From a bacterium (GTDB lineage: Bacteria > Patescibacteriota > Minisyncoccia > Phycocordibacterales > 1-14-0-10-42-12), in the NCBI GenBank assembly GCA_030432135.1, contig JAUIHD010000007.1, forward strand, positions 1 through 10,201: DNA of 10,201 bases. The letters run 5' to 3'. Within the stretch, counting starts at the first letter, position 1. The number at the start of each line of letters is the position of its first letter. The notes beneath the pieces are model-generated. The model was given only the letters and a program-made list of their open reading frames with translations. It searched no databases and was not told the origin of the DNA. The position numbers were made by a program, and so were the translations under genes. Of this stretch, positions 805 through 6,760 are shown piece by piece.

Positions 805-2499
805 ATGCAAGAAGCCATTAGAAACTGGATACAGCAGTATATTGGAGAAGGAGATTTTGTGGTGGAGTACCCAACTAGTCTTGATTATGGTGACTATGCG
901 ATAAATCTCGCGCTTGTTAATGCTAAAAACGAAGGAAAGAATCCTCGCGAACTTGCGGAAATATACCTAGAAAAGCTTCAAGAAAATCTTTTGCCTGAAA
1001 TTGAAAAAATAGAGATTGCTGGTCCTGGTTTTATAAATGTTTTTCTCAAAAGAGATTTTTTTGTACAGACAGTTGGCGAGGTTTTGGATAAAAAAGGGGA
1101 GTTTGGAAAGAATGATTCTGTAAAAGAGAAAATAAGTTACGAATATACAAATACAAATGTATTGAAGCCGATGCACATTGGACACTTGATGGGGAACGTG
1201 ATCGGAGAATCGCTTTCGCGGCTTGCAGAATGGAATGGGGCAGAGGTGGTGCGCAATACGTACCAAGGGGATGTTGGACTTCATATTGCAAAAACAATAT
1301 GGGGTATTAGAAATTCAGAAGGAATTGTAGCAGGGAAAAATCTTTCTGAAGAAGTCGCATACATTGGAGACGCATACACCAAAGGATCAGAGGTGTATGA
1401 AGAAAGTGAAGAGGCTCAAAAAGAAATAAAAGATATAAATAAAAAAGTATATGAGGGTAATGATTCAGAAATAAATACTATAAAAGAGTGGGCGAAAGAT
1501 ATTAGCCTGCGACACTTTAGAGAACTCTATAAAATTTTAGGGACAGAGTTCGATGGTGAACTTTTTGAAAGTGAAGTCGCGGAAGGTGCGGTAAAGGTTG
1601 TTGAAGAATTTAAAGCGAAAGGGATTTTTGAAGAAAGCGATGGAGCCATTGTGTTTAATGCAGAAAAATATAATGAAGCACTGCATACGCGCGTATTTAT
1701 TACATCGCAGGGTGTACCAACATACGAAGCAAAAGACATTGCACATGCAATAAGAAAATATGAGTTATATAACTTCGATACATCGTTCATTATTACAGCG
1801 AATGAGCAGAATGAATATTTCAAAGTTGTGCTCACTGCGTTAGGACAGATACGACCAGATATTGCAGAGAAAACAAAACACCTCTCTCACGGCATGCTTA
1901 AACTCACCACGGGAAAAATGTCTTCTCGAAAAGGAAATGTCATTACAGGTGAGTCACTTATAAACGAGGCAATTGATAGTGTGAGAAAAATTGTCGCAGA
2001 AAATAAAGGGGAAGAGCAAATAAGTGAAGAAGACACAGAGAAAATTGGCGTTGCTGCAATCAAGTATTCAATCCTCAAACAGGCACCAGGTAAGGATATT
2101 ATTTTTGATATTGAAAAATCTATTTCATTTGAAGGGGATTCAGGTCCATACCTTCAGTACACTGCGGTACGAACAAAAAGTATAGAGGAGAAGGCTCGTG
2201 AAGCGGGGGTAGAAGCGAAAGCAGAAAACCCTACAGATCTAAAGCTCTACGAAGTCGAACGAGTACTTCACCGATTCCCTGAAGTCATCAACCATGCGTA
2301 CGCAGAACTTGCTCCGCAAACCGTGGTGACATACCTTATAGAACTTGCGAGTGCTTTCAATCACTTCTACGCAGAAGAAAAAATTGTTGATACGAAAGAT
2401 GTAGACAGTTCATACAAGCTTGCGCTGTCACAGGCAGTAGGGCAGGTGCTTGTAAACGGACTCAATGTGCTCGGTATGAGTATTCCACAGAAAATGTAA
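805..2499 (+). CDS. argS: Arginyl-tRNA synthetase
   Basis: This class I aminoacyl-tRNA synthetase attaches arginine to tRNA-Arg in the cytoplasm, using ATP and bound tRNA. The 564 residues match the usual ArgRS length of about 550-600. An N-terminal tRNA-binding (Arg-S additional) domain spans about residues 5-85 and includes YGDYAINLAL. The Rossmann catalytic domain follows, with a perfect HIGH at residues 124-127 within NVLKPMHIGHLMGN. A KMSSRKG signature at 371-377 takes the place of KMSKS. Many ArgRS have a degenerate second signature, whereas this one keeps a strong version. The alpha-helical DALR anticodon-binding domain occupies about 445-564 and ends in GLNVLGMSIPQKM. The start at 805 is fixed by the extended -10 element six bases before it, and the protein N-terminus is normal for the family. 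No Shine-Dalgarno site is present. A near-consensus promoter begins six bases after the stop. Confidence 0.97.
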   Translation: MQEAIRNWIQQYIGEGDFVVEYPTSLDYGDYAINLALVNAKNEGKNPRELAEIYLEKLQENLLPEIEKIEIAGPGFINVFLKRDFFVQTVGEVLDKKGEFGKNDSVKEKISYEYTNTNVLKPMHIGHLMGNVIGESLSRLAEWNGAEVVRNTYQGDVGLHIAKTIWGIRNSEGIVAGKNLSEEVAYIGDAYTKGSEVYEESEEAQKEIKDINKKVYEGNDSEINTIKEWAKDISLRHFRELYKILGTEFDGELFESEVAEGAVKVVEEFKAKGIFEESDGAIVFNAEKYNEALHTRVFITSQGVPTYEAKDIAHAIRKYELYNFDTSFIITANEQNEYFKVVLTALGQIRPDIAEKTKHLSHGMLKLTTGKMSSRKGNVITGESLINEAIDSVRKIVAENKGEEQISEEDTEKIGVAAIKYSILKQAPGKDIIFDIEKSISFEGDSGPYLQYTAVRTKSIEEKAREAGVEAKAENPTDLKLYEVERVLHRFPEVINHAYAELAPQTVVTYLIELASAFNHFYAEEKIVDTKDVDSSYKLALSQAVGQVLVNGLNVLGMSIPQKM

Positions 2500-2702: not shown

Positions 2703-2730
2703 TTGAATAAAGAGTGAGAAATGCTATATT
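2703..2730 (+). promoter_or_regulatory. Promoter of ileS, predicted leaderless start
   Basis: TGCTATATT (2722-2730) is an extended -10 with hexamer TATATT at 2725-2730. A partial -35, TTGAAT (2703-2708), sits 16 bases upstream of the hexamer. The ileS ATG lies at 2738, seven bases after the hexamer, so transcription should begin at or one base before the start codon. No Shine-Dalgarno site lies in between. The element follows the terminator, so ileS can be expressed independently of the leader RNA. Confidence 0.6.
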
Positions 2731-2737
2731 TTTCCTT

Positions 2738-5700
2738 ATGGATAGCGAAGTAGAGAAAAGCCGATTAGCGAAAAGAGAGGAGGAAATACTCGATTTTTGG
2801 GATATAAAAGATGTTTTTAATAAAAGTCTTGAGAAGGAATCACCTAAGGGTGAGTTTGTATTCTATGAAGGACCACCGACTGCAAATGGTAAACCAGGCA
2901 TTCACCATCTTGAAGCTCGGTCTTTTAAAGATATTATGCTTCGGTATAAAACGATGCAGGGATATCATGTACGCCGAAAAGGAGGTTGGGATACGCATGG
3001 GCTTCCTGTTGAACTCCAGGTAGAAAAAGCACTTGGCCTTTCTTCAAAGAAAGAGATCGAAGCCTACGGCATTTCTGAGTTTAATAAAAAATGTAAAGAA
3101 AGCGTTTGGGAGTATGTCGACCTCTGGGAGCGGTTTACTAAACGTATCGGATATTGGGTTGATCATAAAGATCCGTACATTACCTACGACACTGCATACA
3201 TAGAGTCTGTATGGAATATAGTTAAAAAAGTTTCTGACCAAGGGCTTCTCTACAAAGACTACAAAGTGGTCCCATGGTGTCCACGCTGTGGCACTGCGCT
3301 TTCGTCTCACGAGCTTGCGCAAGGATATGCGGATGTGAAAGAACTTTCTGTCTATGCAAAGTTTGAACTTGTCGAGGAACCAGGAACGTATCTGCTTGCA
3401 TGGACAACAACTCCGTGGACCCTTCCAGGGAACGTCGCACTTGCAGTAGGGGAGAATATTGAATATGTAAAAGTGAAAGTCGGTGACGAGCAATTTATCT
3501 TAGCCAAAGAAAAACTTTCTCTTATTGAAGAAGAATATACAGTTGTCGATGAACAGATTTCTGGTGCACGACTTGTTGGAAAGGAATATAAACCCCTCTA
3601 CGATTTTCTCTGTCACGAAGGAATGATACAAGGTATCGACAATGCGTTTAAAGTTTATCCAGCAAATTTTGTAAATACAGAAGATGGAACAGGAATTGTG
3701 CATACTGCTGTTATGTATGGGCAAGAAGACTTCGAGCTTGGCACAGAGGTCGGCCTTCCAAAAGTGCATGTAGTAAAAGATGATGGACACTATATAGACA
3801 GGCTCGGTTTCCTTGCAGGGCGATTTGTAAAAGACGAAGAAACTGCGGTGGAGATTATCAAAGACTTGGCGCATCGAGGACTACTTTTCAAAAAAGAAAA
3901 GTATGAACATTCATATCCGCACTGTTGGCGATGTAAAACTCCACTTATCTACTTTGCGCGTGATTCGTGGTACATTCGCATGTCTGAATTGCGCCCACAG
4001 CTTGTCGCAGAAAATGAGACAATCAACTGGGAACCAGCTCACATAAAGCAGGGACGTTTTGGGGAGTGGTTAAAAGAAGTAAAAGATTGGGCCGTTTCTC
4101 GTGAGAGATATTGGGGTACACCGATGCCACTCTGGCAGAAGGTTACAACTGGGTCGCTTGTTGCCATTGGTTCTTTAAATGAACTACGTAGTTACGCGGT
4201 GTCTTCAGGAAACAATTATATGGTTATGCGGCACGGAGAGGCTGAACATAACGTAGCGGGCGTGGTGAGTAGTAAAAACAAAAAAGTACGTCTGACTGAA
4301 ACAGGAGAAGCACAAGCACAAGCACGCGCTGAAGAACTTAGAGATTCAAACATTCAAGTCATTATTACCTCGCCATACGCCCGGTGTAAAGAAACTGCAG
4401 ATATCCTACGGAAGGAGCTTGATATCGACTCAGACAATTTCATTGTGGACGACCGATTAGGAGAATTACACGCAGGAGATTTTGACGGAGCCCCTATTGA
4501 CGAGTACCACAGCAATTTTAAAAATACCGAAGAGAGATTCACAAAAGAAGTCGGTGGAGGAGAGACGCTTAAAGATCTTCATAAACGTGTTGCGCAATTT
4601 ATGTATGAAATTGATGGAGAATATAAAAATAAAAATATATTGATTGTTAGTCATCAGGCAGTGATTACTGCGCTCCATACACTTTCAAAGGCGCGCAATT
4701 TAAAAGAAATGGTGGAGATTAAAGAGGATATGTCGTATCACCCAGATGTATCAGAAGTTAGAGAACTTGATTTCTGGCGGGCGCCACGAAATGAAGAATG
4801 GGAAATTGATGTTCATAAACCTTACATAGATGACATTCAACTTGTCGATAGAGATGGCGAACAACTTATCCGTGTTCACGAAGTGCTCGACGTCTGGTTT
4901 GACTCAGGTGCTATGCCATTTGCGCAGGATCACTATCCATTCAAAAACGAAGCGTGGATTGATGGTCCAGGATATCCTGCGGATTATATTACAGAGGCGA
5001 TAGACCAAACGCGTGGGTGGTTTTATACACTTCATGCAGTCGGCGCGCTTATGGGGCGGGGTAAAGCGTACAAAAATGTTATTTGTCTCGGGCACATTCT
5101 TGATGAGCACGGAAAGAAGATGAGTAAATCAGTGGGTAACATCATTGATCCATGGGAAATGACACATAAGTATGGAGTCGACCCTCTACGTTTTTGGATG
5201 TACACCGTGAATCAGCCAGGGGATTCAAAAAATTTTGATGAAAAGACAGTCGACGAAATTGTTAAAAAAGTTTTCAATCTTATCTCAAACACATATACAT
5301 TCTATGAACTCAATGCGCATGACAGTGTTGTAGCTCATAACCAAAGTAGTCATGTGCTCGATAGGTGGATTTTGTCACGACTCCATACTCTGATTGGAGA
5401 AGGAGAAAAGAATCTCGATAGATATAAAATTTTTGAAGCGTGTCGAGCAATTCGTGATTTTGCGAACGATCTTTCAACGTGGTACATCAGACGTTCTCGG
5501 GATAGATTTAAGTCTGAAGATACGGAAGACAAAGAAAATGCACTTGCGACTACTCGATTTGTGTTGAGAGAGCTTTCAAAGTATATGGCTCCGTTTACGC
5601 CTTTCTTTGCAGAAGATTTGTACCAAAAGGTAAGAAAAGATTCTGAACCCGAAAGTGTACACCTAGAATCATGGCCAACAAGTGGTGAAGTAGATACACA

Positions 5701-6169
5701 ACTTATGCAGAATATGGAGCAGGTGCGCAGTATTGTGAGTGAAGCACTTCGTCTGCGGTCTGAGAAAAACATGAAAGTTCGCCAACCACTTGCATCTCTT
5801 TCAATCACTGAAAATCTCTCAGAAGCATTTCTCTCTCTTATAAAAGACGAGGTGAATGTAAAACAAGTGATGGTCGGCGCATCTCAGATGATACTTGATA
5901 CAAACCTCACGCCAGAACTTATTGAGGAAGGAAAAGTTCGAGATTTGATTAGATATATTCAGGAAGCTCGAAAGAAACATGATTTTGTTGCTGAAGATCA
6001 TGCGCGGATGAATATTGATACAGACCAAATAGTGTATGCGCTCATAGAAAAATACAAAGTGCTTATCGCAGCAGAAGCAAATATTCACGAAGTAGTTCGT
6101 GGAGGTGCTACGGGGGAGCCGGTAAAAGTGGGGGACAGTAGTGTAACTATTTCGCTTTCACGTTTGTAA
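2738..6169 (+). CDS. ileS: Isoleucyl-tRNA synthetase with inserted histidine-phosphatase domain
   Basis: This class I synthetase charges tRNA-Ile and edits misactivated valine. It has 1143 residues from ATG 2738, against about 1040 for relatives such as the Thermus enzyme, and the surplus is an inserted domain. Order: catalytic N-part with PPTANGKPGIHH (the HIGH position reads GIHH, residues 54-57, a form I recall from other IleRS of this type), zinc cysteines C181/C184 and C396/C399, CP1 editing domain with WTTTPWTLPGN at 222-232 and GTGIVHTA at 317-324, inserted phosphatase at about 490-682, remaining catalytic core with DVWFDSGAMPFAQ and KMSKS at 794-798, helical anticodon-binding domain, and a C-terminal domain. 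A GTG 24 bases upstream (2714) is in frame, but the -10 element lies between it and 2738, so 2738 is preferred. Three bases separate the stop from recO. Confidence 0.96.
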   Translation: MDSEVEKSRLAKREEEILDFWDIKDVFNKSLEKESPKGEFVFYEGPPTANGKPGIHHLEARSFKDIMLRYKTMQGYHVRRKGGWDTHGLPVELQVEKALGLSSKKEIEAYGISEFNKKCKESVWEYVDLWERFTKRIGYWVDHKDPYITYDTAYIESVWNIVKKVSDQGLLYKDYKVVPWCPRCGTALSSHELAQGYADVKELSVYAKFELVEEPGTYLLAWTTTPWTLPGNVALAVGENIEYVKVKVGDEQFILAKEKLSLIEEEYTVVDEQISGARLVGKEYKPLYDFLCHEGMIQGIDNAFKVYPANFVNTEDGTGIVHTAVMYGQEDFELGTEVGLPKVHVVKDDGHYIDRLGFLAGRFVKDEETAVEIIKDLAHRGLLFKKEKYEHSYPHCWRCKTPLIYFARDSWYIRMSELRPQLVAENETINWEPAHIKQGRFGEWLKEVKDWAVSRERYWGTPMPLWQKVTTGSLVAIGSLNELRSYAVSSGNNYMVMRHGEAEHNVAGVVSSKNKKVRLTETGEAQAQARAEELRDSNIQVIITSPYARCKETADILRKELDIDSDNFIVDDRLGELHAGDFDGAPIDEYHSNFKNTEERFTKEVGGGETLKDLHKRVAQFMYEIDGEYKNKNILIVSHQAVITALHTLSKARNLKEMVEIKEDMSYHPDVSEVRELDFWRAPRNEEWEIDVHKPYIDDIQLVDRDGEQLIRVHEVLDVWFDSGAMPFAQDHYPFKNEAWIDGPGYPADYITEAIDQTRGWFYTLHAVGALMGRGKAYKNVICLGHILDEHGKKMSKSVGNIIDPWEMTHKYGVDPLRFWMYTVNQPGDSKNFDEKTVDEIVKKVFNLISNTYTFYELNAHDSVVAHNQSSHVLDRWILSRLHTLIGEGEKNLDRYKIFEACRAIRDFANDLSTWYIRRSRDRFKSEDTEDKENALATTRFVLRELSKYMAPFTPFFAEDLYQKVRKDSEPESVHLESWPTSGEVDTQLMQNMEQVRSIVSEALRLRSEKNMKVRQPLASLSITENLSEAFLSLIKDEVNVKQVMVGASQMILDTNLTPELIEEGKVRDLIRYIQEARKKHDFVAEDHARMNIDTDQIVYALIEKYKVLIAAEANIHEVVRGGATGEPVKVGDSSVTISLSRL
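4205..4780 (+). other. Histidine phosphatase (phosphoglycerate mutase-like) domain inserted in IleRS
   Basis: Residues about 490-682 of IleRS form a complete branch-1-like histidine phosphatase domain, in frame. The RHGE motif (R498, H499) supplies the phospho-accepting histidine. SPYARCKETA carries the second arginine (R549), RLGELHAGDFDG the acid residue (E576), GGGETLKDLHKRV the usual pre-helix segment, and LIVSHQAVI the second histidine (H639). Every canonical catalytic position is kept, so an active phosphatase is likely. It begins after the IGSLNELR segment that follows RYWGTPMPLWQ and ends before WEIDVHKPYIDDI. In standard IleRS these are joined by a short linker. The substrate is unknown. 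A phosphorylated nucleotide, a tRNA end or a small metabolite can be imagined, but nothing in the sequence decides between them. Confidence 0.92.
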
Positions 6170-6172
6170 AAC

Positions 6173-6760
6173 ATGTATCACACGTACACAACAGACGCAG
6201 TCGTGCTTCAAAGTGAATCTTTGGGGGACGCACATAGGAAACTGTTACTCTTTACAAGAGAGTTTGGTCTTATATATGTACGTGTGCAAAGTGTACGGGG
6301 GCATCTTTCAAAATTACGTCCACTGACTCAAGTATTTTCTCGTGGAGTGTTTACTTTGGTACGAGGCAAGTATGGGTGGCGATTGATAAATGTCATCGGG
6401 GACGAAAACTATTTTTATGAAACGAAGGGGGATGAGACACGACTTGTCCTTGCTCGAGCCCAAATACTTATTAGAAAATTTGTTGGTATTGATGAGGCAC
6501 AACAAGAGATTTTTGATATTTTTGTAAAAGCTATGGGTATGTTACCGCAGTCACACAACACCGAGGCGCACATTATTGAGTCGCTTATGACGTGTCGTGT
6601 TTTGAAACTGCTCGGGTTTCTCACTGATGAAGGATTTCCAGAAGAAATTATCAGTCCGTACACTGATTTTTCAAATGAGCTCATTCTCAGAACCGCGCCT
6701 TATAAAAAGCGTATAAATAGCAGAATTAACAGTGCTCTTCGCGAAAGTGGGTTGAATTAA
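6173..6760 (+). CDS. recO: DNA repair protein RecO, short form
   Basis: RecO helps RecR load RecA onto SSB-coated single-stranded DNA in the RecF pathway of recombinational repair. The N-terminus (residues 1-78) fits the RecO OB-fold, with TTDAVVLQSESLGDAHRKLLLFTREFG followed by a basic VRGHLSKLRPL segment. A helical part covers about 85-195. At 195 residues it is shorter than the 240-260 typical of model bacteria. It has a single cysteine (in MTCRVLK), so the four-cysteine zinc finger of many RecO proteins is absent. The ending ALRESGLN resembles a natural C-terminus, so this is a compact form and not a broken gene. The ATG follows the ileS stop by three bases (AAC) with no Shine-Dalgarno site or -10 element, so co-transcription and coupled translation with ileS are likely. 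The stop codon lies just before the next promoter. Confidence 0.85.
   Translation: MYHTYTTDAVVLQSESLGDAHRKLLLFTREFGLIYVRVQSVRGHLSKLRPLTQVFSRGVFTLVRGKYGWRLINVIGDENYFYETKGDETRLVLARAQILIRKFVGIDEAQQEIFDIFVKAMGMLPQSHNTEAHIIESLMTCRVLKLLGFLTDEGFPEEIISPYTDFSNELILRTAPYKKRINSRINSALRESGLN

Follow-up and report, generated by a model that had tools for sequence, protein, structure and literature searches.

Aminoacyl-tRNA synthetases that carry an added enzyme domain are already known. The methionyl-tRNA synthetase (MetRS) of Mycoplasma penetrans bears an appended aminotransferase that is reported to be able to supply the synthetase with its own amino acid (PMC7694997), and the NCBIfam model NF040702 (ileS_w_GNAT) names an isoleucyl-tRNA synthetase (IleRS) with an extra acetyltransferase domain. 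Here we analyse a window, the whole stretch of 10,201 nucleotides of contig JAUIHD010000007.1 from a patescibacterial genome, in which the gene ileS encodes an IleRS with an embedded histidine phosphatase (HP). This protein differs from the M. penetrans case, an N-terminal addition of a different enzyme to a different synthetase (PMC7694997), and from ileS_w_GNAT in the nature of the added domain (score of 335 against a cut-off of 1999). No description of the conserved HP inside isoleucyl- and valyl-tRNA synthetases (ValRS) was found among the papers listed by full-text searches of open-access literature without preprints, in part limited to the top-ranked matches. Automatic annotation has nevertheless met the fusion, since the database product name of the homologue P0069 reads isoleucyl-tRNA synthetase/bisphosphoglycerate-dependent phosphoglycerate mutase.

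A probably active phosphatase embedded in IleRS

The initial annotation, made from the letters of the window, placed a complete histidine phosphatase domain in IleRS at positions 4205-4780. This agrees with the extent of the insert found here, which is in frame, contains a His_Phos_1 match at residues 504-665 (121.4 bits, with the cut-off at 21.7; E-value 4.8e-35) and lies in the second zinc-knuckle segment of IleRS, presumably the one known as CP3. A short linker occupies this position in the insert-free relatives compared, as had been supposed. The five catalytic residues that were first numbered R498, H499, R549, E576 and H639 are all present and are counted here from the alternative GTG start codon. 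We take H507 to be the nucleophilic histidine, R557 to belong to the phosphate pocket, E584 to be the proton donor and H647 to be the second active-site histidine. The features, with the number of complete embedded HPs that retain each residue, are as follows:

2738..6169, + strand: ileS, IleRS with embedded HP, 1143 amino acids (aa) from the ATG at 2738
about 4199..4792, + strand: whole insert, residues 496-693 (from GTG), flanked by GSLNELR and WEIDVHKPYID, delimited by alignment with homologues and insert-free relatives
4223..4711, + strand: HP domain, branch 1 (PF00300, His_Phos_1)
4229..4234, + strand: R506-H507, RHG motif (H 254/254, R 252/254)
4382..4384, + strand: R557 (254/254)
4463..4465, + strand: E584 (E 250/254, D 3, S 1)
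4652..4654, + strand: H647 (253/254)

The AlphaFold model of the protein has a mean predicted local distance difference test (pLDDT) score of 89.7, with 95.1 for the HP domain alone, which is predicted to adopt the alpha/beta fold of the superfamily. Its nearest solved folds are PhoE and PSP1 chains (24-27% identity), PSP1 being the nearest. The insert is a genuine branch-1 histidine phosphatase domain of the PhoE/phosphoserine-phosphatase (PSP1) type. Membership in the following narrower equivalog families was rejected, as the scores remained under the cut-offs for the alpha-ribazole phosphatase CobC (TIGR03162, 97.3 against 162.9 bits), for phosphoglycerate mutases (NF038349, 86.7/225; NF002901, 47.6/261; NF002339, 34.4/316) and for PspA/phosphoserine phosphatase 1 (NF045917, 65.6/350; NF009994, 60.5/277). 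Among the NCBIfam matches listed (best 25 of 30), no phosphatase or mutase model was over its cut-off and no SixA model appeared, although no search was aimed at SixA.

The catalytic residues are conserved well beyond the window. Frames of at least 700 aa yielded 256 HP segments distinct by core sequence, 254 of them complete, and all five catalytic residues are intact in 248 of the 254 (IleRS-like hosts, 206/207; ValRS-like hosts, 42/47). Since 66 of the IleRS HPs stem from a scan with RHGEA among its patterns, the IleRS figure without them is 140/141. Among 90 complete standalone HPs, all retain H507 and R557 (90/90), and R506 is present in 87, H647 in 85 and E584 in 81, with aspartate in the other 9. 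Ratios of nonsynonymous to synonymous substitution rates (dN/dS) were 0.04-0.20 for the HP and 0.07-0.15 for the synthetase body in those six of the 25 gene pairs listed that were least saturated, by simple Nei-Gojobori-type counts and with two of the 25 pairs representing the same gene pair from two sources. A degenerate, non-catalytic insert was rejected on the basis of this residue conservation and of dN/dS. Selection maintains the HP inside IleRS as what looks like a functioning enzyme and, judged from sequence, it is very probably an active phosphatase.

The same conservation bears on the idea that the fold serves as a structural or ligand-sensing module, with catalysis secondary to a part in binding tRNA or in sensing some phosphorylated ligand. 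The HP lies in a synthetase segment that keeps both cysteine pairs flanking it in 79 of 183 cases at the window's insertion site (site A, below), and this would suit such a module. We regard it nonetheless as the least probable of the biological explanations, given the intact catalytic residues in embedded and, largely, in standalone HPs, and relatives that manage without the domain.

An assembly, binning or frame-reading artefact could be suspected in so fragmentary a genome as that of the window (G000; 417,070 bases in 71 contigs, 59% complete, the window being contig C37). It is in our judgement already refuted: the reading frame is single and open, the junctions are identical in many assemblies, and the same fusion is present in the complete chromosome CP011215.1. 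A profile-level, in-frame match that recurs at one site in many separate assemblies also goes beyond chance. None of the three outcomes named as refuting in the initial annotation occurred, as the HMM search gave a histidine-phosphatase hit, H507 and H647 persist in most homologues, and the join recurs in other assemblies.

The ileS frame is open over 2714..6169, and the GTG at 2714 would add 8 aa to the ATG version, whose length is the same as that of the homologue P0001 (1143 aa, 96% identity over the alignment). The NCBIfam ileS model matches the product in two stretches with 884.6 bits (cut-off 621.4), and Pfam finds tRNA-synt_1 in two pieces with His_Phos_1 between them, followed by Anticodon_1 and DUF5915. 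Part of the first core piece we take to be the CP1 editing domain. Both class I signatures are present, the first in a swapped form. All genes of the window lie on the + strand, in the order yvcK-like (cut at the window start), argS, ileS, recO-like, a DUF11 protein gene and glyS; the recO-like product reaches 27.7 bits with TIGR00613, under the cut-off of 48.7. The remaining features are:

805..2499, + strand: argS, upstream in the same cluster (NCBIfam)
2786..4204, + strand: IleRS core, first tRNA-synt_1 (PF00133) piece (Pfam match)
2897..2908, + strand: class I HIGH signature in the swapped GIHH (GXHH) form, residue 62 from GTG
4793..5215, + strand: IleRS core, second tRNA-synt_1 piece, with KMSKS at 5117-5131 (residue 802)
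5360..5791, + strand: anticodon-binding domain (PF08264), residues 883-1026
6173..6760, + strand: recO-like gene, next in the cluster (PF11967 over the Pfam cut-off), in the same order in relatives

By a simple pattern, 186 HP-bearing frames with an IleRS motif comprise 58 with GxHH, 100 with HxGH and 28 with neither. The swapped signature has been tied to mupirocin hyper-resistance of some type 2 IleRS (IleRS2) in PMC10485003.

Occurrence across genomes and insertion sites

The fusion is wider than first noted and extends through a large assemblage of very small bacteria, most of them uncultured. In a sample of 148 genomes of the window's order, at least 136 hold an HP within a large frame (131 in frames of at least 1000 aa, 5 in frames of 595-862 aa), and of 152 genomes of the class at least 92 have an HP in a frame of at least 1000 aa and at least 10 more have one in untyped frames of 577-939 aa; these counts are lower bounds taken from the best matches listed, down to weak ones. 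The order frames were typed in part, and all 39 fetched loci that were typed are IleRS-like (L039-L057, L135-L154, with the same gene repeated in some). Twelve order genomes had no HP in a large frame. Six of them could not be judged, their assemblies having a broken ileS or none, and the other six (G405, G428, G399, G427, G256 and G505, the last with a gene broken further on) have an ileS that is uninterrupted at the insert position. A scan of named genomes, for which the best 80 of 425 confirmed loci were retained, gave 74 that passed a check of length and motif (five others are below 1000 aa and one lacks the motif). Their record titles include Nomura-, Yonath-, Kaiser-, Campbell-, Taylor-, Zambryski-, Wolfe-, Lloyd-, Adler- and Vogelbacteria, as well as Parcubacteria without further name and uncultured bacteria. 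The viral_contigs scan with alignment A3 gave 154 pattern matches, none of which was confirmed.

Such a distribution also bears on the possibility that the HP reverses an inhibitory phosphorylation that a stress kinase or a toxin of the kinase type has placed on the synthetase or its tRNA. Some histidine phosphatases act on proteins (SixA, Sts), synthetase-phosphorylating kinases exist (HipA acting on GltX), and placement in cis would suit this role. Conservation through whole lineages suggests housekeeping over defence, however, and we consider the explanation improbable.

A homology search with the window insert, restricted to lengths of 0.55-1.75 of the query, retrieved 42 proteins, all with PF00133, PF00300 and RHGEA, and a ValRS insert used as second query retrieved 45, all with PF00133. 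Together these are 87 large HP proteins, of which 49 are nearer to IleRS and 38 nearer to ValRS in a two-way BLAST against one IleRS and one ValRS, a typing that included neither a LeuRS nor a MetRS reference. The ValRS identity held for 5 of 5 tested proteins, which were over the valS cut-off.

According to a map of 24 loci, the HP occupies four sites in IleRS: A, the window type; B, just after A, where a second tandem copy is found (family f83); C, after the WFDSG segment; and D, between the catalytic and anticodon parts. In ValRS it occurs at the equivalent of A (L058-L065, and as a tandem pair in L074), at C (L066, L067) and in L075/L076. One IleRS of 1572 aa (L070:2167-6882) contains three HP domains at three sites. 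Several insertion events took place, because the insertion sites differ. HPs in both IleRS and ValRS were found in 6 of 13 ValRS-HP genomes (G411, G490, G223, G365, G242, G046), and the other seven showed no IleRS HP among the matches listed.

Some of these proteins have further additions. The ValRS of L075:1695-5537 carries about 200 further residues ahead of the HP, including a serine-hydrolase match, and a GNAT match adjoins the HP in the IleRS of L073:2638-6990. Fusions of the HP to proteins other than synthetases were limited to two among the fetched loci, one with an MFS/ATG22-like membrane protein (L131:2685-4556) and one in a 463-aa frame (L068:981-2369) whose partner we take to be a DedA-like membrane protein; further frames of 437-544 aa were not fetched.

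The standalone gene and the history of the domain

In part of the class, the embedded HP corresponds to a standalone gene located between argS and ileS. Such a gene, of about 190-200 aa, lies directly between the two in six loci without an insert (L235, L245, L250, L253, L254, L255). The stop-to-stop frame of the HP in L253 overlaps those of both argS and ileS. In L251 it directly precedes ileS at a contig end, in L252 it follows argS with only an ileS-like piece 1.7 kb away at the contig end, and in L256 it lies 1.8 kb ahead of ileS. L236 has the order argS, HP, HD-domain gene (HD_4), ileS:

L236:5045-5548: gene for a small HD_4 protein between the standalone HP and ileS

For comparison, the IleRS P0038 has a C-terminal HD domain fused to it. 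These ten operon or near-operon loci contain recO in 8 cases and the DUF11 gene in 7. G174 and G619 have their related solo HPs at other places, and no ileS was found within the fetched stretches of the other solo HPs (L132-L134, L237-L240, L258-L263, L265, L266).

A neighbouring gene of this kind leads to the main rival explanation: ileS may have swallowed a housekeeping phosphatase of the PhoE, PSP or riboflavin-precursor type, and the fusion would secure co-expression in a reduced genome without any relation to tRNA charging. The adjacency in some relatives, the variable insertion sites, the metabolite phosphatases among the closest solved structures and the absence of the HP from some genomes all fit this proposal. 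It accounts less well for tandem copies, for the 6 of 13 ValRS-HP genomes whose IleRS has a separate HP as well, and for a set of 87 large HP proteins that are all IleRS- or ValRS-like, beside only two other fusions among the fetched loci. We consider it unlikely, albeit the strongest of the alternatives.

The HP tree (121 rows, quick method) leaves 52 of 118 inner branches open. It contains a set of 55 rows (Shimodaira-Hasegawa-like approximate likelihood ratio test, SH-aLRT, 95). This set takes in 8 of the 10 HPs from operon or near-operon loci, 26 of the 28 sampled at site A in the order and class, all 9 free relatives, 8 of the 14 from site A in other classes, 3 of the 20 solo HPs and a single HP of L070. 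L154 and L084, two site-A HPs of the window's order that had been assigned a group of their own before tree building, fall outside it, as do the operon HPs L236 and L256, whose position is close to the IleRS insert L116. In approximately unbiased (AU) tests, a single clade of all site-A HPs with the operon HPs and free relatives was not rejected (p 0.634; smaller set 0.552), nor was a single clade of everything but the solo HPs (p 0.343). The domain tree does not separate one source from several for the HP domains, and the claim of independent domain origins was dropped.

The domain has probably also been lost. The insert-free IleRS of G405 (L079) retains LPQNENGEPDLHKPYID, which is similar to the linker after the HP in G475 (L150) of the same genus, FPHNENYELDLHRPYID; this linker resembles a scar and suggests secondary loss in G405. 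By pattern match, no such linker was found in G428, G399 and G256, while G427 and G505 were unmatched by the pattern. The initial interpretation is partly supported: the inserted domain is complete and very probably active, and the substrates suggested at first, an adenylate-derived nucleotide or a phosphorylated tRNA end, are conjectural. It had overlooked the standalone gene, the insertions in ValRS and at other sites, the tandem copies and this probable loss.

Function and comparison with known enzymes

Beyond the directly supported presence, site, predicted fold, catalytic residues, selection, neighbouring standalone gene and IleRS and ValRS insertions, a functional link of the HP to isoleucine and valine charging is likely. 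With moderate confidence we favour an active small-molecule phosphatase that is tied, probably in cis, to the activation of these two amino acids. The HP would most likely act in cis, inside the zinc-knuckle segment of IleRS, and would strip phosphate by the phosphohistidine mechanism of its family from a small phosphorylated molecule that would arise at, or inhibit, isoleucine and valine activation. That it acts in cis on such a charging-related molecule is about evenly balanced, the strongest hint being the 6 of 13 ValRS-HP genomes with HPs in both synthetases. A nucleotide by-product or inhibitor would be the best single guess for the substrate, tentative and even doubtful as the assignment to a nucleotide is. 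A role in clearing AMP was rated low, since the destruction of AMP would waste purine.

Several observations weigh against a role in charging. Aminoacylation does not require the HP insert, because relatives without the insert exist: at least 6 of the 148 order genomes have an IleRS uninterrupted at the insert place, and the insert-free clusters of G205, G405 and G428 show argS and ileS with no HP between them. The standalone form is untethered. The variety of sites (A, B, C and D in IleRS, and those in ValRS) implies that a fixed geometry beside the synthetic site is not required, and the nearest folds are general metabolite phosphatases, compatible with a housekeeping role that has no bearing on charging. 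A catalytic position is altered in six embedded HPs, of which five belong to ValRS (L062, L063, L065, P0066, P0079 and the second HP of L070), and degenerate copies are possibly under-counted, since all HPs were recovered via similarity to intact ones. Of the 25 listed pairs, 18 show a higher dN in the HP than in the body, and the domain accordingly evolves somewhat faster.

A bolder version of the favoured link would make the HP a third catalytic centre in charging itself, which attacks the phosphate in a charging intermediate or derivative, e.g., a misactivated or released adenylate, and so provides phosphatase-based proofreading or product clearing beside the editing site, recruited repeatedly and by IleRS and ValRS only. 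We consider this rather improbable.

The conserved HP in the isoleucine and valine synthetases extends over a large share of the candidate phyla radiation, and the fusion together with the neighbouring standalone gene points to an undescribed link of protein synthesis with a phosphatase. Related genomes offer fused, separate and absent versions of one system, and thereby a handle on the question which phosphorylated molecule joins isoleucine and valine charging and the phosphatase.

The best solved match of the whole model is the IleRS2 of Priestia megaterium (PDB 8c8v; Foldseek E-value 1.4e-91, 33% identity). Some IleRS2 share its GXHH form of the HIGH motif (PMC10485003), whereas the word phosphatase is absent from the main text of that paper. 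Compared with PhoE and PSP1, the window HP differs in being embedded in a synthetase. The fusion of Sat and a histidine phosphatase in Sulfolobus is a single case from one genome and does not involve a synthetase, but it resembles the protein described here in that an HP is joined to another adenylate-forming enzyme (PMC11237513).
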